Below are positions 1,428-39,179 of a stretch of DNA of 61,697 nt, in pieces. The translations under genes were made by a program, and so were the position numbers. The DNA is taken from the IMG/VR virus record IMGVR_UViG_3300009285_009643, positions 1 to 61,697 of that record; one strand, given 5' to 3'. The notes below the pieces were generated by a model that ran no database searches, had not been told where the DNA came from, and saw only the letters and a program-made list of their open reading frames with translations. Within the stretch, counting starts at the first letter, position 1; the number at the start of each line of letters is the position of its first letter. This DNA is from a virus.

Positions 1428-1600
1428 AATGTCACCTCTTGAATTTTGATAATAAAGGCCCGCCACACGCTTTTCAATGTAAGACGATACATTGTGTATG
1501 TGCAGATCACCGTTCATGCACTGGCGGGGCCAAATTCGTGGTCGTTGATCTGGTATTAGGTTGTTTGGTTGGGCTGTCTGCTCCAAGGCAGCTATTCCCG

Positions 1601-1618
1601 AAATCGGTTAACCGATTT
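1601..1618. promoter_or_regulatory. Operator-like palindrome, copy 1
   Basis: An 18-bp perfect palindrome, AAATCGGTTAACCGATTT, lies between two leftward genes. The same core recurs at 1966-1987 and 2961-2976. Each copy sits upstream of a leftward gene and outside coding sequence, as expected for binding sites of a dimeric repressor. The protein that binds is not known; the Cro-like protein at 5554-5742 is one candidate. Confidence 0.65.
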
Positions 1619-1632
1619 TCTTTACGTGGTGG

Positions 1633-1953
1633 TTATGCTCCCCAGCCGCCCTGCCAGCGGTTGTTGGCCCGTGCCTTGGCCTCCTCAGCCTGGATATCCT
1701 CTTCCAAGGGCATAAAGGCCACTACACGCAACTTTGCCCTCCTGCCGCCCATTGCCTCAAACATTTCTTTGGCGAGGCCTGGCGCCCTAAAATTGGCCAC
1801 AACGTGACCATCTCTGTCCACTATCCTCCAGCGGTGTCTGTCTTCCGCCGGTTTGAGTACCGGCGTCCCGAAATCCGGCCAGTTGGTTTTGAGCTGGCAC
1901 ATTGAGCTGTTGACATCCGCCTGCCTATTCTCATCTATGACATATCTTTTCAT
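1633..1953 (-). CDS. Hypothetical protein, 106 residues, operator-linked
   Basis: ATG at 1953, with an AGG ribosome site about seven bases upstream, lies just downstream (in the direction of transcription) of palindrome copy 2. The product has a central stretch, HRWRIVDRDGHVVANFRAPG, typical of a small beta-hairpin domain, then a basic segment and a Trp-Gly rich C-terminus (RWQGGWGA). It looks like a compact soluble phage protein. No catalytic motif and no recognised family. Confidence 0.6.
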   Translation of the reverse strand: MKRYVIDENRQADVNSSMCQLKTNWPDFGTPVLKPAEDRHRWRIVDRDGHVVANFRAPGLAKEMFEAMGGRRAKLRVVAFMPLEEDIQAEEAKARANNRWQGGWGA

Positions 1954-1965
1954 ACTGGCCTCATT

Positions 1966-1987
1966 AAAAATCGGTTAACCGACTTTT
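1966..1987. promoter_or_regulatory. Operator-like palindrome, copy 2
   Basis: The core TCGGTTAACCGA (1971-1982) is flanked by A and T runs that extend the dyad to 22 bp with a single mismatch (A1970/C1983). It lies 13 bases before the start codon of the leftward gene 1633-1953, so a bound protein could block either transcription or ribosome entry. Confidence 0.65.
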
Positions 1988-2032
1988 CTAATTCATTTGT
2001 TTGTTAGGTTTATTTGTTGGTGCTTCCTGAGA

Positions 2033-2052
2033 AAGTTAGTGAATACTAACTT
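2033..2052. repeat. Inverted repeat AAGTTAGT-4-ACTAACTT
   Basis: An eight-base perfect inverted repeat around GAAT lies in the gap between the gene starting at 1953 and the terminator-like hairpin at 2069-2096. It could be a second type of operator or a weak RNA hairpin. Nothing in the sequence decides between these. Confidence 0.35.
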
Positions 2053-2068
2053 ATAGGACAAGAGAATG

Positions 2069-2096
2069 GCCCGGTGTCGATATTTTGACACCGGGC
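2069..2096 (-). terminator. Hairpin after the leftward gene 2104-2754
   Basis: GCCCGGTGTC and GACACCGGGC form a perfect 10-bp GC-rich stem with an 8-base loop, starting eight bases past the leftward stop codon. The following minus-strand bases (CATTCTCTTG) are only weakly U-rich, so termination may be partial or the stem may protect the mRNA 3' end. Confidence 0.6.
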
Positions 2097-2103
2097 TGGG
2101 AGG

Positions 2104-2754
2104 TTACTGGCCAATAGCCTGTTGTACGTCTTCAATCGTCACATTGTTCATAACACCGACCTTACGGAGCGCGTCCTCAGTCGTCTCGCCACGTGCGGTC
2201 AACAAGGCGTAATCCTCGGCGATAGCCTGTTTCATCCGGTACGCCTTGACCATTTCGCGCTGAGCATCGACAGATTGCACAATCTCAGCCTTACACTGGG
2301 CGGCAAGGCTAATAATCGCCGTGTAGTGGGCTTGATCCAGGCCAGGAAACAACTTTTCCAACTTCTCATCAACAGACTTCTCGACGATGACCTTGAAAGT
2401 AAAGGTGCGGCTTTCGTTGTCCCACTTCAAAGCCTTACCTTCAAAGGCGAGCTTATTCTTTGCCCATCGTTTGAATGAGCCAATGAGGCTACTCTTTGCT
2501 TCATCCCGATAGTTTCTACCCTTAGGCCAGAGAATACCGTCATGCAAGCGGTCTTCATCGGCCTTACCCGAGGGAAGGGTCAAGACAAGGGCTGCCATGT
2601 TGGACAGCATGGCGCCGCTGTCCTTGATGTTCTTGGCGTGGATGGCCTTGTCAAGTTCCAAGGCCTTGGCCTTGTTTGACAATGCTTGATCTTTTGACAT
2701 TGCCTTTCCTACTAAGCAGTTACTCAATTCGTTGAATCCGGTTACTTGTGTCAT
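2104..2754 (-). CDS. Hypothetical protein, 216 residues
   Basis: ATG at 2754 is preceded by the ribosome site AAGAGGCGACACT, almost the same leader as the upstream gene 2768-2941. A second possible start is the Met 19 codons in (MSKDQALSN), preceded by AAAGGC. The product is charged and largely helical. A Lys-rich N-terminal helix is followed by a middle block (LHDGILWPKGRNYRDEAKSS) and a C-terminal helical domain ending in a short UBA/HTH-like segment (VGVMNNVTIEDVQQAIGQ). It is the largest gene of the operator-controlled leftward unit and is followed by a hairpin. Family unknown. A role in host takeover or regulation is inferred only from its early position. Confidence 0.65.
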   Translation of the reverse strand: MTQVTGFNELSNCLVGKAMSKDQALSNKAKALELDKAIHAKNIKDSGAMLSNMAALVLTLPSGKADEDRLHDGILWPKGRNYRDEAKSSLIGSFKRWAKNKLAFEGKALKWDNESRTFTFKVIVEKSVDEKLEKLFPGLDQAHYTAIISLAAQCKAEIVQSVDAQREMVKAYRMKQAIAEDYALLTARGETTEDALRKVGVMNNVTIEDVQQAIGQ

Positions 2755-2767
2755 AGTGTCGCCTCTT

Positions 2768-2941
2768 TTAGTGGGTGGTGGTTGTAAGTACGTACATCAT
2801 TGATTCAATGTACGCTCTTTGATCTGCGGTTAACAGCTCGTTGTTAAGTTGTTCAATCGGTGAGAGCTGGTCAAGGCGGTGATTCTCGCACCATTCCTCA
2901 TACTGCTTTTCTGCCGTGGTGTAGGTGTTTGAAGTATTCAT
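2768..2941 (-). CDS. Small hypothetical protein, 57 residues; first gene of the leftward early unit
   Basis: ATG at 2941 follows AAAGAGGCGACAAG, the same leader as the next gene, suggesting duplicated translation signals. The product is acidic and Thr-rich at both ends (begins MNTSNTYTTAEKQYEEWCEN, ends TTTTH). It is the first gene after palindrome copy 3 and the leftward promoter at 3061-3033. No family recognised. Confidence 0.6.
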   Translation of the reverse strand: MNTSNTYTTAEKQYEEWCENHRLDQLSPIEQLNNELLTADQRAYIESMMYVLTTTTH

Positions 2942-2960
2942 CTTGTCGCCTCTTTTATTT

Positions 2961-2976
2961 AATCGGTTAACCGATT
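2961..2976. promoter_or_regulatory. Operator-like palindrome, copy 3
   Basis: AATCGGTTAACCGATT is a 16-bp perfect palindrome. It lies between the leftward promoter (-10 box at 3038-3033) and the first leftward gene (ATG 2941). This is a roadblock-type operator position in the 5' leader. Confidence 0.65.
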
Positions 2977-3032
2977 CTTGTACTACTTTGTGGTATTAAC
3001 CTTTGATCCCAGCTTCCCTTCTCTATATCTTT

Positions 3033-3061
3033 ACTATAAGGGTTCCGACTTGAAAAGTCAA
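3033..3061 (-). promoter_or_regulatory. Leftward sigma70-type promoter
   Basis: On the minus strand TTGACT (3061-3056) and TATAGT (3038-3033) are separated by exactly 17 bases. This is a good sigma70 match, placed to transcribe the genes from 2941 leftward through palindrome copy 3. Confidence 0.65.
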
Positions 3062-3067
3062 TACCTT

Positions 3068-3259
3068 TTATGTACCTTCTGCGTGCCTTGTGCTTAACCT
3101 ATATGATGCACGTACCATGCCAGTATGCTATATCTAATGATAACAAGTACTTAGCTTTAAGGGGATGGAGAGAGTGAGTATCTTTTATGCACCACGCTGT
3201 AGTATGTTGGTCCTTTGTAATGATATCAGCTAGTTAGCCATGCATAAAGATTATGCACC
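3068..3259 (+). repeat. Three direct repeats TTATG(C/T)ACC
   Basis: The nonamer occurs at 3068-3076 (TTATGTACC), 3185-3193 (TTATGCACC) and 3251-3259 (TTATGCACC). The last copy forms the right arm of a TGCATAA-aga-TTATGCA dyad. Spacing is irregular (117 and 66 bases), unlike classical iterons, so this could be a transcription-factor site set or chance in AT-rich DNA. Confidence 0.35.
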
Positions 3260-3445
3260 GTACAATGTGATAGGCAGCTGACAGTGTTAGCGTGACCTAA
3301 CTATCCAAGCTGTCAAGAGAAATATTTGTTAGTTTGCCTTAACAGTGTTGACGTATACCGACAAAGTTAGCCGAGGCAAAGAGGGCGCTATAGTTGCTTC
3401 ATCGATGCTCAAGGCAATTTTCAAATTTGATATTACAAATAGTAT

Positions 3446-3474
3446 TTGACACCCTGCTCCAGACAATGTAAAGT
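3446..3474 (+). promoter_or_regulatory. Rightward sigma70-type promoter
   Basis: TTGACA (3446-3451), 17 bases, then TAAAGT (3469-3474), with the first rightward start codon 28 bases further on. The -35 is perfect and the -10 matches four of six. It is the likely promoter of the mini-gene operon from 3502. Confidence 0.65.
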
Positions 3475-3501
3475 CAAAAGAAAACAAAGAAGGAATACAA
3501 A

Positions 3502-3864
3502 ATGTCGGCGGAATCACCATTAAGAGCCAGCGTTGAAAACGGGGAACTGGTAATCAGAGTAGGAATAAACAGACTAGATGGCGATGAATACCATCTGGAA
3601 ATACCAGTCCTGAAATTTGACAACAGATCAGAGTGGGTAAAAGATGTAATTTCTGAACTGTTCAGAGAGGAGGAAGATGGACGAACACCAATAGGAGATC
3701 TTCTAGACACAGCCATGAAACACGCTATAGAGAACGGATCAATAGGATTATCAATTGACTCACCAGGAAGAAACGGGACTTGCTGGATGTGCGATGAAGA
3801 CCAAGTACCACTCTGGCACACCAAAATAGGAAGTATCTGTCAAGATTGTAAAAGCCGCCTATAA
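3502..3864 (+). CDS. Hypothetical protein with C-terminal zinc-ribbon-like Cys pairs, 120 residues
   Basis: ATG preceded by AAGGAA. The N-terminal 90 residues look like a mixed alpha/beta domain with acidic stretches. The C-terminus carries CWMCDEDQ and, about 20 residues later, CQDCKSRL. These two CxxC pairs could bind one zinc ion. It is the first gene behind the rightward promoter and so probably expressed early. Small zinc-ribbon phage proteins often bind nucleic acid or host RNA polymerase, but no specific family is recognised here. Confidence 0.65.
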   Translation: MSAESPLRASVENGELVIRVGINRLDGDEYHLEIPVLKFDNRSEWVKDVISELFREEEDGRTPIGDLLDTAMKHAIENGSIGLSIDSPGRNGTCWMCDEDQVPLWHTKIGSICQDCKSRL

Positions 3865-3893
3865 AATATGTATTGTAAAAGAGGGAAAACAAA

Positions 3894-4067
3894 ATGGAAA
3901 GAATAGCCGAAGCAATCGACACCCTGGAAAACCTGATAGCAGCAACCTCAATGCCTATTCCAAACGATCTCATCGTAGAAGCCCTTAGGGAAGCTCTGCC
4001 AGAACTCCATACGGAGCTCAAAGCAGCATATCTGGAAGCTGGTGGCTTCAATGTGTGGGAGGACTAA
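3894..4067 (+). CDS. Small conserved phage protein, 57 residues, paralogue of the gene at 40176-40358
   Basis: ATG behind GAGGGAAAACAAA. The product (start MERIAEAIDTLENLIAA, end GGFNVWED) matches the leftward gene product at 40176-40358 (start MNRIAEVIDSLENTVAA, end GGGNVWEDPDE) along its whole length. The match includes the R-(E/Q)-x-L-P-E centre. It is helical with a conserved N-V-W-E-D tail. Function unknown. Two copies kept 36 kb apart in opposite operons argue that it is a real and useful protein. Confidence 0.7.
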   Translation: MERIAEAIDTLENLIAATSMPIPNDLIVEALREALPELHTELKAAYLEAGGFNVWED

Positions 4068-4068
4068 A

Positions 4069-4335
4069 ATGACAATTTGTATAGGCCCATGTAAATGCGG
4101 AGGATACGGGCAAATCCTCAATGAACCAGCAGACACGTGCCACAGAGACGTTCATCAAGGTGGCATATTTGGCCACTTTGTCACAGCCAAACTGAAGGGA
4201 AAGGAAGACTGTCGACAAGGTGTGGTAGTAAGCCTCAAACCATTGTTAATAAAAGGACAATACGGCAGAGTATACGAGTGCGAAGGGTCTCCAACCGCAG
4301 TGATTAACCCTCCTCCGGGGTGGAGAATTTTATGA
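4069..4335 (+). CDS. Hypothetical Cys-rich protein, 88 residues
   Basis: Start at ATG 4069, behind GGGAGG in the tail of the previous gene. Six Cys fall in CIGPCKCGG, C-H, DC and EC contexts near both ends, suggesting metal binding. It ends in the Pro-rich segment NPPPGWRIL. Its stop overlaps the next start (ATGA), so the two are translationally coupled. No family recognised. Confidence 0.55.
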   Translation: MTICIGPCKCGGYGQILNEPADTCHRDVHQGGIFGHFVTAKLKGKEDCRQGVVVSLKPLLIKGQYGRVYECEGSPTAVINPPPGWRIL

Positions 4336-8855: not shown

Positions 8856-10361
8856 ATGGCGAAAAAACTCTCAAAAATACTAGCAAAGCACCGAAGACGA
8901 CAGGCAGCGGCCCTCCCTGTCACTGACCTCAAAGTCAAAGTTCCGTCCTCGGAGCAGGTCATACCCAGATTTTTGGGCAAGGCCAAAAATGCTGTAATAT
9001 CAGACAGATCCTCGAACATAACCAATTCGGCGTTGTCACCGTTCAGTCGCGGTGAGGCGACGATGAACGAGACTATTAAGAAGTTGGTCTTGGCCTCTCC
9101 GGATCTGTTCAACGCCGTACTCAGCAAAGTAACGACCGCCGTGGCTACCTCTTATACGGTCATTGCCTATGACGAAGTCGGACGGGTAGATGAGGACGCC
9201 ACTGAGCTGGCTCAAGCCTTCACTCGCAAACTCGATTACCAGGCCCCGGCCTACGATAAATTTTATTTGTCTACCGATTCCCGCTCCCTGTCCACCTCCC
9301 TGCTCTATGATAATCTCCGCTACGGAGCTATGTGTGCCGAGTTGGTGCTGGACAAGACCAGGAAACCCAGTCACCTGAAGCCGGTAGCCACCAGGCTGCT
9401 CAAGTGGGCTGATGACACCCCGGGGACCTACCCGGTTTACAAAGGGCCCGACGCTGATGTGCCCCTCAACTTCCCGACAATATTTTACTCAGCTTCACTG
9501 AATGATTCGGAAAGCCCGTATGCTGACAGCCCGCTGCAGGCCGCCATTCAAGCCTGCCTTTGGGACTTTGAATTCACCGACGCCCTGCGTAAGGCTGCTA
9601 TCAAGAACCTGCTCGGTCGGCTGCTGGTGACGATCAACTCAGAGAATTTCCGTAAGACCGTGCCGATTACTGTCCAGGCCGACGTCAAGTTGATGAAAGA
9701 GTACATGGACTCGACTGTCTCCCAACTCGAGGCCCAACTCAACGGACTGGAGCCGGAAGACGCTCTGGTGGTCTTCGACTCGTTACAGGTCACCACCATC
9801 CAGGACAAGAATCGCTCTGAGGATAAATCGATCTCGGTTTTAAAAGACCTGATCAATGGCCGGATCTCGGCCGGCGCCTCCATCCTGCCGTCGATTATCG
9901 GCCGGGGAGATGGCCCTCAGGCCGCCTCAATGGAAGCCCAGCTGTTCGTGGCTTCCTGTACCAAACTGCAGCAAGAGTTAAATATCTTATATTCTCGAGC
10001 ACTTACCCTGTCAGTCAGATTGTTTGGCAAGCCAGTAACTGTGCGGTTCAAATACGCCGAGGCTAACCTCCGGCCGGAACTTGAACTGTCCTCATTCAAG
10101 GCTGTCAACCAATCCACCATCCTCGAGCAGCTGTCACTTGGCCTGATCTCCGATGTCGAGGCCTCAATCATGCTGACCGGCACCTTGCCGCCCAAGGGGT
10201 ATGTGCCCAAATCCGGCACTATGTTCAAGAATTCCTCACCAAACGCCGGCGGCGTCAACGATTATTCCAATACCTCAGCCACTACTTCGGCCAAACCGAA
10301 CAGTGGCCAGAATCAGAAGGCTGGTGGAGACACCAAGTCACCGGGAGTGAAATCGAAATGA
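8856..10361 (+). CDS. Portal protein
   Basis: The dodecameric portal forms the DNA channel at the prohead vertex. Of 501 residues, the central part resembles DUF935/Mu gp29-like portals: a helical crown and stem region ending with the QAASMEAQLFVASC segment and LGLISDVEASIMLTGTLPP, a motif shared by this group. The C-terminus is a polar, Ser/Asn/Gly-rich tail. The ATG at 8856 has no ribosome site. An in-frame ATG at 9063 (MNETIKKLV) is preceded by GTGAGG and may be the true start, which would remove 69 basic residues. It sits between terminase and the head protease, with a four-base overlap downstream. Confidence 0.85.
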   Translation: MAKKLSKILAKHRRRQAAALPVTDLKVKVPSSEQVIPRFLGKAKNAVISDRSSNITNSALSPFSRGEATMNETIKKLVLASPDLFNAVLSKVTTAVATSYTVIAYDEVGRVDEDATELAQAFTRKLDYQAPAYDKFYLSTDSRSLSTSLLYDNLRYGAMCAELVLDKTRKPSHLKPVATRLLKWADDTPGTYPVYKGPDADVPLNFPTIFYSASLNDSESPYADSPLQAAIQACLWDFEFTDALRKAAIKNLLGRLLVTINSENFRKTVPITVQADVKLMKEYMDSTVSQLEAQLNGLEPEDALVVFDSLQVTTIQDKNRSEDKSISVLKDLINGRISAGASILPSIIGRGDGPQAASMEAQLFVASCTKLQQELNILYSRALTLSVRLFGKPVTVRFKYAEANLRPELELSSFKAVNQSTILEQLSLGLISDVEASIMLTGTLPPKGYVPKSGTMFKNSSPNAGGVNDYSNTSATTSAKPNSGQNQKAGGDTKSPGVKSK

Positions 10362-13629: not shown

Positions 13630-15297
13630 TTATTGTACCTCCATCACCCACCGCTTCTTCCCGCAGTCGTATATCCTGTACCACCCGTTTCTAAGACAAT
13701 TTTGGTGTTCTGACTCCTCTGGGCGGAAGTCTATGTCTTCCCTGGCCGCCAGTCTGGTTCTGCTAAAGTGATTCTTTGGTTCAACCATCTGGTTCTTGCT
13801 ATATTTGTAGTCTGGATTCAACTCTTTCTCTAAAGTGAATCCAAGCCTCTCATACATCTCCCCAGTGAACCACCTGTTATCTGAGTAACTTATAAGTTTC
13901 CTGCACTCCGGATGAGACCTGAGGAACATCTTTAACAGGCGGCTAGCACCACCCGCCACCCTACAACAAGAGGCAAATCTACGAAGCTCCCATAAGCCGA
14001 CCGAAGAGTTTCCTCTAATTGATGTGGCCCTGCTGAAGGACATCGCACATACCACTTGATTGTTTATTGTAAGCGCCCCAACCCAGCAACCTGTCACTGT
14101 TCCTTGTAAGTGATTTTCGTTAAAGAATTTCGTTGCCCATAAATCAGATGAGCGACCAATCAACACAGTGCATTTTCTTGCAAAGTATCTCTCATCGTTT
14201 ATCCCAAGAATGTGGGCCAAGGTTTTCTTAACTACCGTTATATCTTCTTTGTCACTTATATGAATAAGCCTGATCCCCGTTGCAAGACAATCTGTTTGCT
14301 TCCTCTTCATGTGCCATACGGGATCTTTGTTGAATCTTTCAGAGTGCCATATTGTGCCATTGTACTCTATGCCTATGTTCTTCTCTCTAACAAGGATGTC
14401 TATTTCTCTGCCGTTGAGTATCTTCCTGTCCTTCCCCTCTGTTTCATAAAATTCAGATAAAAAGGCGCGAATCTCATCCTCTTTCTTGCTGATGTGTTGC
14501 CCACAGGTTTGACATCCACATCCTCCAAGATGCTTGCCTGGGGATTGGAGAAATTCCCCATGTTTTTTACAGACTATTTTTACTTTCGCAGCATTATTCT
14601 TTCCGTATTTGACTAGGGAATAGTCGTAAGTGTCTCCGTGGACCTCTCTTGCCAGCTTTATGAAGTCAGCTGTCCCACTCTTTCTCAACTCTCCACCGCT
14701 CCAGTCTCCACATGCAGGACAGCCAGATTTATCCAGATGTACATTTGGAGTCTGTCGAAATTCACCATGAGTTGGACAAACTATTGTTACTGGAGTCACA
14801 CTGTTCACATACTTTGCCTGGGTATATATGTAAGTGTCTCCATGTATTTTTCTGGCTCTGGATATGAATTCCTCAGTACTTAGTGTGAGGTTTTTTCCTA
14901 TTCTAATCCTCCCACATTGGGTACATCCCTGTCCACACAGATGTCCGTTCGGGGAAAGATCAAACACCCCGTGCAGTGGGCAGACTATCTTTACTTTTTC
15001 AATAGCTTTTCGGTATTCGACCAAGGAGTAGTCATAGAAATCTCCGTGAACAGCTTGAGCTTTTTTAACAAAGTTTTCAGCACACGCCCTACTCCTGCCA
15101 AGGTTGGATTTACCGCCACTGCAGGATTTACAGCCGTGTCCATTTGCGTGGGAATAGGGGTCCTGTAGGAATGCCCCGTGTTCAGGACAGATAATAGTGA
15201 CTTTGGTGTGGTCAGACACTTTCTCTGTCACTCGAGAGTAGTCATAGAAATCTCCGTGAGCTTTTCTGGACCTTTCGACGAATCTCTCAACATTCAT
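13630..15297 (-). CDS. Free-standing homing-endonuclease-like protein with four zinc repeats
   Basis: Likely cuts DNA to spread its own gene. The 555 residues begin with four repeats of about 55-65 residues, each with the pattern A-x-x-x-H-G-D-x-Y-x-Y followed by I-V-C-x-x-H-G-x-F-x-Q-x-P-x-x-H and a G-C-x-x-C end. These look like DNA-reading zinc modules. A nuclease domain follows (SKKEDEIRAFL, GREIDILVREKNIGIEYNG, IWHSE), as in Vsr-like PD-(D/E)XK homing enzymes of T-even and other phages. The C-terminal 190 residues resemble the associated acetyltransferase-like DNA-binding tail (SYSDNRWFTGEMYERLGF). It is transcribed against the virion operon and coupled to the RHH gene upstream. Confidence 0.8.
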   Translation of the reverse strand: MNVERFVERSRKAHGDFYDYSRVTEKVSDHTKVTIICPEHGAFLQDPYSHANGHGCKSCSGGKSNLGRSRACAENFVKKAQAVHGDFYDYSLVEYRKAIEKVKIVCPLHGVFDLSPNGHLCGQGCTQCGRIRIGKNLTLSTEEFISRARKIHGDTYIYTQAKYVNSVTPVTIVCPTHGEFRQTPNVHLDKSGCPACGDWSGGELRKSGTADFIKLAREVHGDTYDYSLVKYGKNNAAKVKIVCKKHGEFLQSPGKHLGGCGCQTCGQHISKKEDEIRAFLSEFYETEGKDRKILNGREIDILVREKNIGIEYNGTIWHSERFNKDPVWHMKRKQTDCLATGIRLIHISDKEDITVVKKTLAHILGINDERYFARKCTVLIGRSSDLWATKFFNENHLQGTVTGCWVGALTINNQVVCAMSFSRATSIRGNSSVGLWELRRFASCCRVAGGASRLLKMFLRSHPECRKLISYSDNRWFTGEMYERLGFTLEKELNPDYKYSKNQMVEPKNHFSRTRLAAREDIDFRPEESEHQNCLRNGWYRIYDCGKKRWVMEVQ

Positions 15298-28889: not shown

Positions 28890-29567
28890 ATGACGCGCAT
28901 AGACTTTAGACTTGATCGAATACCGAATCCAGACGAACGGAGTAGAAATTATAGTGTTTATGCCGCTGCCCCGAGTCGGGAGATAATCTCCAGGGTCTGG
29001 TTAACTCACGGATATCTCGATCAGGGTCAAGAAGGGGCGTGTACGGGCTTCGCCGTGACCAACGGTCTGTTGGCTGAACCTCATATGGGTTCTCTCGATG
29101 TGTTCACTAATGAGTTCGCTCGAGAGAAGATCTACTACGAAGCCCAGAAAGTGGATAGGTTCCCTGGCGGGGAGTACCCAGGAGCCAAACCCAGAATGGG
29201 CGGTACCGGTGTTGTCGACTCCGTTAAACAGGCCCACAAACAAGGTTATATAGAAAGCTACCGATCATCGTTTTCCTTCAATGAGTTTCTGGTAGGCCTC
29301 AGTTATTATGGCCCGGCAGTAATTGGTGTTAACTGGTATGAGGGGATGTACAACACTGATCATCACGGGATGATCAAAATCTCTGGCCGGGTCTCTGGCG
29401 GTCACTCTGTTTTGGTATGCGGGGTGAACATCCACTCTCAAGTCTTCCGTATCAAGAATTCCTGGGGCAAGCTGTGGGGGGTGGACGGACTGTGCCTGAT
29501 CTCATTCTCTGATATGGAGCGCTTGTTGAAAGAAGATGGCGAAGCCATATTTATGGTAAAGAGATGA
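28890..29567 (+). CDS. Papain-like (C1) cysteine peptidase
   Basis: The 225 residues show a full C1A active site: oxyanion Gln and nucleophile Cys51 in YLDQGQEGACTGFAV, His172 in GGHSVLVCGV, and Asn190 in RIKNSWGKLWG. No signal peptide or prodomain is visible, so the enzyme is either virion-borne or acts in the cytoplasm. Possible roles are processing of fibre or exported proteins, or attack on host surface proteins during entry. It sits directly after the fibre genes and before the holin-like genes. The family is not common in phages. Confidence 0.8.
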   Translation: MTRIDFRLDRIPNPDERSRNYSVYAAAPSREIISRVWLTHGYLDQGQEGACTGFAVTNGLLAEPHMGSLDVFTNEFAREKIYYEAQKVDRFPGGEYPGAKPRMGGTGVVDSVKQAHKQGYIESYRSSFSFNEFLVGLSYYGPAVIGVNWYEGMYNTDHHGMIKISGRVSGGHSVLVCGVNIHSQVFRIKNSWGKLWGVDGLCLISFSDMERLLKEDGEAIFMVKR

Positions 29568-30185: not shown

Positions 30186-30467
30186 ATGGCAGACACCAAA
30201 AATATCAATGAAGCACTGGAAATAGGCAAGCAGATCGCTGACCCTGCCATTTGGAAAAACAGAGGACTCCTTGCAAATAAGATTGCTGCGGTGATTACCC
30301 TGATTCCCGGTATCCTAAAATCATTCGGTTACGATGTGCCGCTGATGGAGGACGATCTGGTGATTGCCTTGTCGAGTGCGATTTCAGCTTTGCTGTTTTT
30401 ACTGAATAACAAATTGGCTCAAGCCACATCCAAGAAAATTGGCACAAAAAATACAGACGAGGTTTAA
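30186..30467 (+). CDS. Putative holin, 93 residues
   Basis: Two hydrophobic helices (IAAVITLIPGILKSFG around 33-48 and LVIALSSAISALLFLL around 57-72) are joined by a short acidic turn, with a charged Lys-rich C-terminus. This is the class II holin layout: holins pore the inner membrane to release endolysin. It directly follows the membrane-anchored coiled-coil gene. The matching lysozyme is 8 kb downstream, an unusual separation. Confidence 0.55.
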   Translation: MADTKNINEALEIGKQIADPAIWKNRGLLANKIAAVITLIPGILKSFGYDVPLMEDDLVIALSSAISALLFLLNNKLAQATSKKIGTKNTDEV

Positions 30468-31180: not shown

Positions 31181-31954
31181 ATGAAGAAATTAGTTTTTGC
31201 AACAATCCTCTTGCTATTATCAACCCAACTTAGTTTTGCCGACAAACGGGTAACGGACCTCACAGCACAGACCGAGGCTATTTCAGCAAGTGACTATATT
31301 CCCGGCATAGATGTCAGCGACACCACGGAGAACGCAGCGGGGTCAAGCAAGAAAATCACTTGGACTCAGGTGGGTTCTTACCTCGCTACCTTGTTCCCCA
31401 CACACGCAACGTCAGACGGTAATTATTATGCATCGAAAGACGGGACCTGGGCTAGTTTAACCGGGGTTTTCTTGACTCCTTCTGGTAACACCACGGGTAC
31501 CGCAGGGGGGCTCGCCGCGCAGTATATAGACTGGAGTGCGACGACAGGCGGAACTTCAATAGCCAATAAGCCTGTTCTGACCAAAGATATAGGTTGGGTT
31601 ATTAAAGAGTCTGATGTTGCGACTGCCGTTGCGGACGGAAAGATGGCGTTTGCGGTACCGGCAACCATGAATGGCATGAACCTCACCGATTGCACTGCTG
31701 CAGTTGCCGATCTGAACTCCGCCGCTTCAGGCGCCACTACTGTGGTCTTGAGAAGGGTTCGAGGTGTCACCGCAGCTGACATGACCTCGACGGGAGTGAC
31801 GGTTGAGTATAATATCTACTCCGCTTCGGACGAGACCGTAGACACAGCAAATGACGACCTCGCTACTGGGGATCTATTGTACCCAGATGTCAATGCAGTG
31901 ACTTCAGCAGCGCAAAAAGGACTGTCGTTTACCTGTATTTTTAGTCTACCCTAG
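31181..31954 (+). CDS. Signal-peptide protein with tail-fibre-like body, 257 residues
   Basis: The N-terminus MKKLVFATILLLLSTQLSFA is a textbook Sec signal peptide with cleavage after SFA. The body starts KRVTDLTAQTEAISASDYIP and ITWTQVGSYLATL, the typical opening of phage fibre modules, and it ends in a beta domain (VVLRRVRGVTAADM, LLYPDVNAVTSAAQ) also typical of fibre tips. A fibre-like protein that is exported is unexpected, since virion proteins assemble in the cytoplasm. It may decorate the cell surface or periplasm and act in receptor blocking; this is inference. Confidence 0.65.
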   Translation: MKKLVFATILLLLSTQLSFADKRVTDLTAQTEAISASDYIPGIDVSDTTENAAGSSKKITWTQVGSYLATLFPTHATSDGNYYASKDGTWASLTGVFLTPSGNTTGTAGGLAAQYIDWSATTGGTSIANKPVLTKDIGWVIKESDVATAVADGKMAFAVPATMNGMNLTDCTAAVADLNSAASGATTVVLRRVRGVTAADMTSTGVTVEYNIYSASDETVDTANDDLATGDLLYPDVNAVTSAAQKGLSFTCIFSLP

Positions 31955-31977
31955 ATAGGAGTTCAGCGAGGAAGCAA

Positions 31978-32904
31978 ATGGATGACGTATTGCACGACAA
32001 TAAGTATTATTCATTTCACAAACACAGCGATGGTTCAGGGATCCCCGTTTTCATCCTCCCACCATTCGCCGGCAGGGGTGGATCGGTAACCGATAAACTC
32101 GTCGCAAAATGTGTTGCATCCGGTCGAACCGTTTACCGATACGAACTGAAGTCCGCCACGCAAGAGACAAAAGATTTATCTATTGGTGGACTCCTCCAGA
32201 TAATCCGCTGGTGCCACGATACCATTATAACCGAACACGGCAGCCGGGAGATCAACCTGCTCGGGACATGCCAGGGAGGGTGGCTCGCTGCAATGTATGC
32301 CAGCCTGTACCCTACTGAAATCCATAAAATATCCCTCTTTGCCGCGCCGATCAACACCAGGACTGGCTCTGACAACGCAATTGAACGCTATTGCAAAACA
32401 ATTAATATACCTATGCACCGGGCAATGGTAGCGATGAATGGCGGTATCCAGGCCGGTATGTCCCAGTGGATGGCGTTTGCCCTGATGGCTCCTGAGTTTG
32501 TGTTTTTTGGCAGGTATTGTGATATGGCGAGGCATATCTTCAACGGCGACCAAAAGGCCATGGAGAAATGGAGCGCAGTCAACGAGTGGTACGACTCCCC
32601 TAGAGATCTTGCTGGCGTGTGGTTTCTTGACGCCCTGGAGAACCACTTCACCAAGAATAAACTCTATGAAGGAACCTGGGAGATCTATGGAAAGAAGATC
32701 GATCTCTCGCGGATCACTTGCCCCGTTTATGTTTTTGCCGGAGGTGACGACGATATCACCTCTGTTGAACAGACTAAAGGTATTCTCGACAAGGTATCTT
32801 CAAAAAGTAAACAGTTCGTACTGTTTCCAGAGGCAGGGCACACCCGGGTCTTCACAGGCAAAAAAGAGCTTGACCAGTTTGCTGAAATATTCTTCAATTG
32901 CTGA
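31978..32904 (+). CDS. Alpha/beta hydrolase with Cys nucleophile (PhaC/DUF3141-like), 308 residues
   Basis: The lipase box is GTCQGG (96-101) with Cys98 as nucleophile, the G-x-C-x-G-G form found in polyhydroxyalkanoate synthases and DUF3141 proteins, not the usual Ser. The acid is likely one of Asp257-259 (FAGGDDDITS) and the base His288 (PEAGHTRVF), giving a C-D-H triad. An oxyanion strand VFILPPFAGRGG is present. No signal peptide, so cytoplasmic. It may polymerise, depolymerise or move hydroxyacyl groups, or modify lipid. At 308 residues it is slightly shorter than class III PhaC. It is surrounded by exported-protein genes. Confidence 0.7.
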   Translation: MDDVLHDNKYYSFHKHSDGSGIPVFILPPFAGRGGSVTDKLVAKCVASGRTVYRYELKSATQETKDLSIGGLLQIIRWCHDTIITEHGSREINLLGTCQGGWLAAMYASLYPTEIHKISLFAAPINTRTGSDNAIERYCKTINIPMHRAMVAMNGGIQAGMSQWMAFALMAPEFVFFGRYCDMARHIFNGDQKAMEKWSAVNEWYDSPRDLAGVWFLDALENHFTKNKLYEGTWEIYGKKIDLSRITCPVYVFAGGDDDITSVEQTKGILDKVSSKSKQFVLFPEAGHTRVFTGKKELDQFAEIFFNC

Positions 32905-34126: not shown

Positions 34127-34582
34127 ATGCTTAAGCAGATACTTTTTCTCATCCTCCTGACCTCTTCCGCCCAGGCAATGCAGGCGACGGTTGTCAGTGT
34201 CGTTGACGGAGACACCCTCAAAGTTGTTAACGCCAATGGTCAGGCTACCATCAGACTGTATGGCGTTGACAGCCCGGAGAAGAAGCAGCCGTTTGGCCTG
34301 GCCGCCAAATCATTCACCAGTTCTTTCGTTGAGGGAAAGCCAGTTGAGATCACCCCTATGGATACTGATCGGTACGGTAGGACCGTGGCTGTGATCAAGA
34401 TCGGGACCCAGTGTCTGCAAGAACAACTACTGCTCTCCGGCTACGCTTGGGTATACCCTCAGTATTGTCTCAAGCCTTTCTGCAGTACTTGGACGACTTT
34501 TCAGGATATTTCAGTTGGTAACCGAGTCGGGCTGTGGGCGGACCCGTCACCTGTACAGCCATGGGAATGGAGAAAACAATGA
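34127..34582 (+). CDS. Secreted thermonuclease (SNase family), 151 residues
   Basis: The signal peptide MLKQILFLILLTSSAQA is followed by a complete staphylococcal-nuclease-like fold: SVVDGDTLKV (Ca-binding Asp), IRLYGVDSPEKKQ (catalytic Arg and acidic residues) and DTDRYGRTVAVIK (second Arg). It hydrolyses DNA and RNA and should act in the periplasm or outside. In a phage this could destroy incoming rival phage DNA in the periplasm, digest host DNA released at lysis, or degrade extracellular DNA of a biofilm. A possible disulphide forms between the Cys pair near the C-terminus (YCLKPFC). Its stop overlaps the next start. Confidence 0.8.
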   Translation: MLKQILFLILLTSSAQAMQATVVSVVDGDTLKVVNANGQATIRLYGVDSPEKKQPFGLAAKSFTSSFVEGKPVEITPMDTDRYGRTVAVIKIGTQCLQEQLLLSGYAWVYPQYCLKPFCSTWTTFQDISVGNRVGLWADPSPVQPWEWRKQ

Positions 34583-38694: not shown

Positions 38695-38705
38695 GAGGGT
38701 TGAGA

Positions 38706-39179
38706 ATGAACGTTGGAAAAAACTTCATGCGGTTGCTGATCGATGCTGAAGGCTTCAAAACTCAGGTATATCCAGATAGAGCAGGATATTTGACTATCGG
38801 CATCGGCCATAAACTCACTCAGTCAGAACTTTCTTCGGGGAAGATCCTGATCAACCACCAACCAATCAAGTACCGGAATGGCCTGACTGATGATCAGGTA
38901 TACTCCCTGGCCAGACAGGACGTGGCTTGGGCGACTGAAGCCGTCAGCAAATCAGTCAAAGTACCATTGACCCAGAATCAGTTCGACGCTTTGGTGTGTA
39001 TGACCTTTAACATCGGCGCCGATGCTTTTCAGGGGTCTACTCTGCTGGAGGAATTGAATCTGAGACGGTATGACCAAGTCCCTATTCAAATGGTTCGGTG
39101 GCACTGGTCCGGCGGCGTACCCCATGTTCTGGATAGCCGCCGGCAGAAAGAGATTTTGGTGTGGAACACTGAGGATTAG
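38706..39179 (+). CDS. Endolysin, T4-type lysozyme (GH24)
   Basis: Degrades peptidoglycan for lysis. The catalytic Glu15-Asp24-Thr30 (DAEGFKTQVYPDRAGYLTIGIGH) has the exact spacing of the T4/P21 lysozyme triad. LTQNQFDALVCMTFNIGADAF is the usual second conserved helix. Start taken as ATG 38706 behind AGAGGG. A TTG two codons upstream is a weaker option. No signal peptide, so it needs a holin. The stop overlaps the convergent ThyX stop by four bases. Confidence 0.9.
   Translation: MNVGKNFMRLLIDAEGFKTQVYPDRAGYLTIGIGHKLTQSELSSGKILINHQPIKYRNGLTDDQVYSLARQDVAWATEAVSKSVKVPLTQNQFDALVCMTFNIGADAFQGSTLLEELNLRRYDQVPIQMVRWHWSGGVPHVLDSRRQKEILVWNTED

Follow-up and report, generated by a model that had tools for sequence, protein, structure and literature searches.

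P0001, a 308-residue protein encoded in a phage record, is a Cys-Asp-His alpha/beta hydrolase that we place firmly, and almost certainly correctly, in the superfamily of the PhaC polyhydroxyalkanoate (PHA) synthases and PhaZ depolymerases. Much carbon is stored as PHA by many bacteria. Our best explanation, in which confidence and doubt are about equal, is that a phage branch of this superfamily would attack stored PHA, either hydrolytically or by thiolysis with CoA, and so feed infection. Phage use of the PHA store is made directly testable by this branch of the PHA enzymes, which is old, evolves under purifying selection and occurs in unrelated phages.

The gene and its phage record

The source is an IMG/VR virus record of 61,697 bases, possibly incomplete, which was analysed over its whole length (the window). 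The open reading frame (ORF) of P0001 was confirmed at exactly 31978-32904 on the plus strand, with an ATG start (Table 1). Among 87 ORFs selected from the record, the GxCxGG motif occurs once, in P0001 alone. The same record encodes TerL, a portal, a maturation protease, a major head protein and a tape measure; its phage origin is therefore sound, and the phage is a tailed one. The other arm carries ThyX, DNA ligase, DNA polymerase and helicases. TerL and the major head protein are closest to those of Vibrio and Pseudomonas phages (about 26% identity), and the closest phages, judged on these proteins and the portal, do not indicate a single host.

Table 1. Features of the P0001 gene and its neighbours in the window.
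Feature	Position	Strand	Evidence
P0001, Cys-Asp-His alpha/beta hydrolase, 308 aa, phage clade of the PhaC/PhaZ/DUF3141 superfamily	31978..32904	+	ORF, family models, AlphaFold model, alignments, trees
Likely ribosome-binding site, purine-rich, GAGGAAG-type, upstream of the P0001 ATG	31966..31974	+	By eye
Cys98 codon, nucleophile in G-T-C-Q-G-G	32269..32271	+	Computed from ORF start; conserved in all aligned sequences
Asp258 codon, aligned catalytic Asp, followed by Asp259 (His in PhaC)	32749..32751	+	Alignment
His288 codon, aligned catalytic His	32839..32841	+	Alignment
Neighbour: 93-aa holin-like membrane protein	30186..30467	+	By eye; no Pfam match
Neighbour: phage lysozyme (endolysin)	38700..39179	+	PF00959, E=1.7e-31

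Family assignment and predicted structure

Alignment of P0001 with PhaC, PhaZ and DUF3141 proteins identified the triad as Cys98-Asp258-His288, Asp258 being the middle residue of an Asp triplet. All three residues are kept in the aligned phage proteins (7/7), PhaC (53/53), PhaZ (25/25), DUF3141 (4/4) and a set of bacterial relatives described below (80/80). Thus, the nucleophile Cys98 that the original prediction had seen in a G-T-C-Q-G-G box of this ORF is real, and kept across all groups aligned. The rest of the triad, proposed as Asp257-259 and His288, was borne out and could be refined to Asp258, with Asp259 replacing the synthase His.

Three curated NCBIfam models matched P0001, all below their cut-offs: class III PhaC (TIGR01836, E=3.4e-29, 101.9 bits, cut-off 365.3), class I PhaC (TIGR01838, E=5.4e-10, 38.3 bits, cut-off 622.65) and PhaZ (TIGR01849, E=4.2e-12, 45.5 bits, cut-off 300.75). 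The gathering scores of two Pfam models were exceeded, namely PF06850 (PHB_depo_C; E=9.3e-14, 51.8 bits against 27) and PF11339 (DUF3141; E=6.4e-9, 35.4 bits against 29.7). The PF11339 match spans residues 23-269 and covers profile positions 70-320 of 582; the full-length DUF3141 architecture, a hydrolase with a C-terminal region, is absent. PHROGs gave a weak esterase/lipase match at best. The best-matching solved sequence was a PHA synthase (9knj, 1.6e-7).

An AlphaFold2 model of P0001 built from 58 aligned sequences had a mean pLDDT of 91.9 and a pTM of 0.90. When this model was compared with the PDB by Foldseek, the 14 best matches were all PhaC chains. In the VIA listing, the closest structures were class I PhaC, and all seven PhaC rows had Z values of 28.8-32.3 and rmsd values of 2.4-3.5 over 278-291 aligned residues; the next row was lysosomal acid lipase (Z 23.7). 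The PDB structure listings contained no Cys-type PhaZ or DUF3141 structure, so that neither family is excluded by them. Among predicted viral proteins, the best structural matches were mostly generic alpha/beta hydrolases. P0001 is thus confidently modelled with a PhaC-type catalytic-domain fold, a shared fold being by itself no proof of function.

A chance motif was ruled out because several family models agree with the structure. The structure search could also have placed P0001 in an ordinary lipase or thioesterase family, a candidate rejected as best match because PHA synthases fill all the top places among the PDB matches. The kinship with PhaC, DUF3141 and PhaZ put forward at the outset is thus supported.

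Comparison with synthases and depolymerases

P0001 resembles PhaC of classes III and I (TIGR01836, TIGR01838; 9knj, 5xav, 5hz2) in its catalytic-domain fold, G-x-C-x-G-G box, C-D-H triad and Trp204. It lacks the class I N-terminal domain and 16 of the 33 residues common to PhaC classes I and III; it matches the other 17, whereas real PhaC match 31-33. One of the missing residues is the His that follows the catalytic Asp. Position 259 is His in 53/53 PhaC, and Asp in 7/7 phage proteins, 78/80 of the bacterial relatives and 23/25 PhaZ.

The Cys-type PhaZ (TIGR01849, PF06850) shares with P0001 a C-D-H triad based on Cys, the Asp after the catalytic Asp and a PF06850 score above the gathering threshold. 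P0001 is about 100 residues shorter. Moreover, its G-x-C-x-G-G box and Trp204 are PhaC-like and unlike PhaZ, which has an A-V-C-Q-P box and a Glu at the position of Trp204 (25/25). At the nine columns that separate PhaC from PhaZ, the phage proteins follow PhaC three times, PhaZ three times and neither three times. DUF3141 (PF11339) has in common with P0001 a CQGGW-type box, the triad and a sufficient Pfam score, but the four proteins compared are about 560-810 residues long with a C-terminal extension, and are otherwise distant in sequence. Since P0001 mixes PhaC and PhaZ features and misses the curated cut-offs, it is a member of neither family as curated and represents a third branch of the superfamily.

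The nature of the nucleophile does not settle the activity. A Cys-His-Asp triad with a Cys nucleophile is described for the Ralstonia-type intracellular PhaZ in a passage of PMC2666664, and the same triad is given in part of PMC11878206. Therefore a Cys nucleophile does not mean a synthase, and the Cys box common to synthases and depolymerases is a reason for caution in annotating such genes as phaC. Could P0001 nevertheless be a synthase-like acyltransferase, polymerising hydroxyacyl-CoA or moving hydroxyacyl groups to another acceptor? Among curated models it comes nearest to class III PhaC, its closest structures are class I PhaC, it shares the box and Trp204 with PhaC, and tree tests (see below) do not reject a grouping of its clade with PhaC. 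These points are set against 102 bits where 365 are asked for, the 17 of 33 PhaC-wide columns, the missing His, and the rejection of class III PhaC alone as partner in the tree. It would also seem to make little sense to build up a store when infection is well advanced. Finally, none of 10 phage records gave an above-threshold match to the phasin or PhaE families, each family having one sub-threshold match taken as chance; a phage-borne PHA pathway was rejected on this basis. The P0001 record itself, possibly incomplete, has no match to PhaE (PF09712), and a host could supply this class III partner. By the tests run (bit scores, PhaC-wide residues and position 259), P0001 does not appear to be a PHA synthase, and the wider acyltransferase reading is improbable. 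The "PhaC-like" label of the original prediction thus stands for family kinship and falls for synthase activity, because PhaZ has the same triad, the cut-offs are missed and the PhaC-wide residues differ.

Phage relatives and gene position

Scanning IMG/VR with alignments revealed 15 further viral contigs with compact P0001 relatives; single-sequence scans of viral and genome contigs had given no match. The relatives form two phage clades. Clade A contains P0001, L011, L012, L013, L014, L015, L016 and L099 (54-61% identity to P0001), together with L213 and L215 (40-43%). Clade B contains L209 and L211 (apparently the same protein on two contigs), L210, L212, L214 and L216. The phage proteins whose 5' end is present (n=15, P0001 included) are 301-336 residues long, as judged from automatic starts. 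The L213 contig is 238 kb long and possibly derives from a jumbo phage.

Besides the hydrolase, no ORF in the stretches of L011-L016 examined matches the P0001 record (blastp E<1e-3). Likewise, the hydrolase of L099 is its only match to the P0001 record or to the examined stretches of the L011, L012 and L016 contigs. By terminase or portal, the P0001 record is closest to SHOU24 and L016 to phages such as Rollin and BcepC6B; the L099 contig has a lambda-family portal and a phrog_15 terminase. As these terminases and portals come from different phage groups, clade A is present in at least three unrelated phage lineages.

Clade A shows purifying selection: dN/dS was 0.06-0.11 in the pairs with estimable dS, 4 of the 15 pairs formed by six clade A genes. 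Synonymous sites were saturated in the other 11, including all five pairs with P0001. A recent acquisition of the gene from a host is not supported, given this saturation, the finding of no bacterial protein above 36% identity and a GC content of the gene (0.492) close to that of the whole window (0.498). Among INPHARED phages P0001 had no match at E<=0.01, and a class I PhaC query gave two partial matches, in two large "Acinetobacter phage" records. Putatively viral IMG/VR contigs also contain PhaZ-type genes at two loci and class I PhaC-type genes at three, one of them just 61 aa.

In one lineage (L011-L016), the hydrolase gene lies directly downstream of an endolysin gene, with a 4-nt overlap, in four of six contigs. 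The endolysin is an M15 peptidase in L011-L013 (by Pfam for L011, with the same N-terminus in L012 and L013) and GH108 in L016; L015 is cut at the hydrolase gene, and in L014 the identity of the preceding ORF was not established. P0001 itself is encoded between the holin-like ORF and the lysozyme. Such positions would suit a lysis-associated esterase whose target, as infection ends, is an ester or lipid of the envelope. This role is unlikely in view of several observations. P0001 is cytoplasmic-looking, with no evident signal peptide by eye. In L099 the surrounding genes resemble those for DnaB, HNH proteins and methylases, and the nearest cell-wall hydrolase-like gene noted is about 20 kb away (by eye); the hydrolase genes of L210, L215 and L216 are beside or near helicase, primase-helicase, exonuclease, primase or SSB genes. 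The wider family, moreover, is located in PHA clusters. So variable a position is more easily reconciled with an accessory gene than with a fixed part of lysis. Action in concert with exported neighbours, which had also been suggested, finds no support: P0001 has no evident signal peptide, and none of the adjoining window genes is found beside the hydrolase in the relatives compared.

In L016, an 844-aa polysaccharide-deacetylase-like protein (1574-4108) and a calcineurin-type phosphoesterase (8928-9893) are encoded between the hydrolase and TerL.

A related bacterial branch near PHA genes

Of 488 candidate stretches from a genome scan, 444 were confirmed, and the best 80 of these (30-35% identity) were retained as the bacterial set. 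The branch, annotated as "PHB de-polymerase domain" and exemplified by Bcep1808_7272 of Burkholderia pBVIE02, is 30-36% identical to P0001 over nearly the full length; we found no characterisation of it. It shares CQGGW, the C-D-H triad, Asp259 and Trp204 with P0001, and the box reads G-[LM]-C-Q-G-G in 80/80. Most of its ORFs encode 349-391 aa and are about 60 residues longer at the N-terminus, an extension absent from the 308 residues of P0001. The phage proteins also differ from the branch at 30 of 75 branch-wide columns.

Neighbouring genes were counted by tblastn within the loci, using seeds. PhaR-, phasin-, PhaE- and divergent PhaC-like genes occurred together in the same 11 of 80 loci, PTA/PTB in 23, acetate kinase in 20 and any tested gene in 36. 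These counts have no random-locus control; we estimate that a given single-copy gene would fall within a 12-kb stretch by chance in well under 1% of cases. Pfam confirmed only the seeds for PhaR, PTA, acetate kinase, SDR and 3-hydroxyacyl-CoA dehydrogenase; the labels phasin-like and PhaE-like were assigned by eye, and the divergent PhaC is a weak NCBIfam match. In the deltaproteobacterial branch, all eight members included in the tree belong to the 11 PHA loci and have these PhaR-, phasin-, PhaE- and divergent PhaC-like genes no more than about 6 kb away. The bacterial branch was present in 7 of 200 sampled genomes, all seven of which have other TIGR01836 matches (116/200 have any match); it is thus hardly the only synthase of those genomes.

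The deltaproteobacterial cluster of L037 (6993-11087), with ten similar loci, encodes PhaR and small phasin/PhaE-like proteins, as well as a divergent PhaC-like protein of 526 aa that carries GYCQGG and has no Pfam match at E<=0.01. Elsewhere (L025, L051, L060 and others), the hydrolase gene often has phosphotransacetylase and acetate kinase genes close by, an arrangement that would suit the fermentation of stored polymer to acids for ATP.

Phylogenetic position

Trees included 33 or 34 of the 80 bacterial proteins, hand-picked for spread, and the pBVIE02 protein was added in the earlier ones. Later trees used a random draw of 12/23 PhaC I, 12/30 PhaC III and 14/25 PhaZ. Alignments and trees did not include L012, whose blastp score against P0001 equals that of L011, and the trees did not include L209 (same length and blastp scores as L211). 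L104 was removed after an early tree for its very long branch, and L158 and L159 were not used.

PhaC I and III were split from the phage proteins, the bacterial branch and PhaZ with supports of 99/98, 99/97 and 100/98 in three trees, the last of 85 rows. PhaZ stood apart at 100/100 in the first of the three. In the 85-row tree, clades A and B were recovered at 100/100 and 100/99. There, clade B grouped with the deltaproteobacterial branch (95/87) and clade A joined both at 94/80, just below the tool's star, with DUF3141 left out. When DUF3141, a long branch, was included, clade A was drawn beside it with low support (three trees). Clade A as sister of class III PhaC alone was rejected by the AU test (p=0.004). 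Grouping of clade A with PhaC (p=0.24, 0.30 and 0.34) or with PhaZ (p=0.40) was not rejected, so that its placement is tentative.

The stem of clade A is long, with 1.2-1.7 changes per column. Arg33, Leu57 and Asn126 are found in 9/9 clade A tree members and are unusual in every other group compared; they replace His or Asn at 33, Trp57 and Asp126, which the other groups mostly keep. The substrate of clade A may therefore have changed. Indeed, the lost residues and the long stem would both be expected of a Cys hydrolase for another intracellular ester or thioester, whose link to PHA is only ancestral. We regard this reading as rather doubtful, given that triad and fold are retained and that clade B, which groups with the PHA-cluster relatives, keeps His33 and Asp126 (5/5) and Trp57 (4/5).

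Proposed activity

Our preferred reading remains an attack on stored PHA. Thioester acyl-enzymes are known for the PHA enzyme superfamily. In P0001, Cys98, activated by His288 and Asp258, would attack an ester bond of the host PHA granule, probably of polyhydroxybutyrate, to form an acyl-enzyme. Resolution by water would give 3-hydroxybutyrate or oligomers, and resolution by coenzyme A would give 3-hydroxybutyryl-CoA; for PhaZ1, such thiolysis is described in PMC3430594. The released products would enter host central carbon metabolism and could provide carbon, reducing power and ATP for phage replication. P0001 would then be an auxiliary metabolic gene mobilising storage polymer.

In favour of this reading are the PhaZ-like Asp259, the tree separation from PhaC, the relatives in PHA clusters and the purifying selection; against it are the PhaC-like box and Trp204, the AU tests that reject neither PhaC nor PhaZ as partner of clade A, the changed residues of clade A and the lack of phasin and PhaE matches in the 10 phage records. 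The parts of the reading differ in strength. Activity of any kind on PHA or hydroxyacyl esters is probable; a net depolymerising direction is, in our judgement, an even call. Its activity, substrate, host, chemistry and benefit are what we infer here. The original prediction had suggested that the enzyme might tap the host carbon store, and this is also the reading that we infer to be best; that unrelated phages carry their own compact versions suggests such a use. More speculatively, the family could be a storage-polyester depolymerase or thiolase, passed among unrelated tailed phages (one on the 238-kb contig), that burns host PHA granules, with Arg33, Leu57 and Asn126 marking a specificity unseen in the cellular enzymes compared. 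Phages would then have a dedicated route of their own into the carbon stores of bacteria; we put this forward tentatively.

Phages carrying PHA-family enzymes have a precedent. As described in part of a 2025 study (PMC12013262), a transcribed phaC was among the phage auxiliary genes of PHA-producing cultures. The phaC described there closely resembles the gene of one of the hosts and is intended for polymer synthesis; the P0001 branch, in contrast, is old and, in the searches made, found on viral contigs only, apart from bacterial relatives at <=36% identity. Thus, the general idea is not new, but the P0001 branch appears to be. The portions of open-licence literature consulted, including PMC8651126, PMC6895999, PMC10134843 and PMC7113391, make no mention of PHA depolymerases in phages, nor of this branch; being open-licence literature only, they are weak evidence of novelty.

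Other genes of the record

Within the head/tail gene block, an ORF on the opposite strand (13630-15297, minus) encodes a 555-aa protein of the HNH/homing-endonuclease type (phrog_559, E=2.4e-131). A 225-aa papain-like cysteine peptidase (28890-29567, plus; PF00112, E=5.1e-5; phrog_16701, E=2e-49) is encoded between the tail fibre and holin-like genes. Between 31181 and 38694 on the plus strand, signal-peptide- or lipoprotein-like starts were noted by eye at 31181, 33085, 34127, 34534, 35738 and 36436, mostly in ORFs without a family match. The ORF at 34127-34582 (plus) encodes a staphylococcal nuclease homologue (PF00565, E=1.1e-17).
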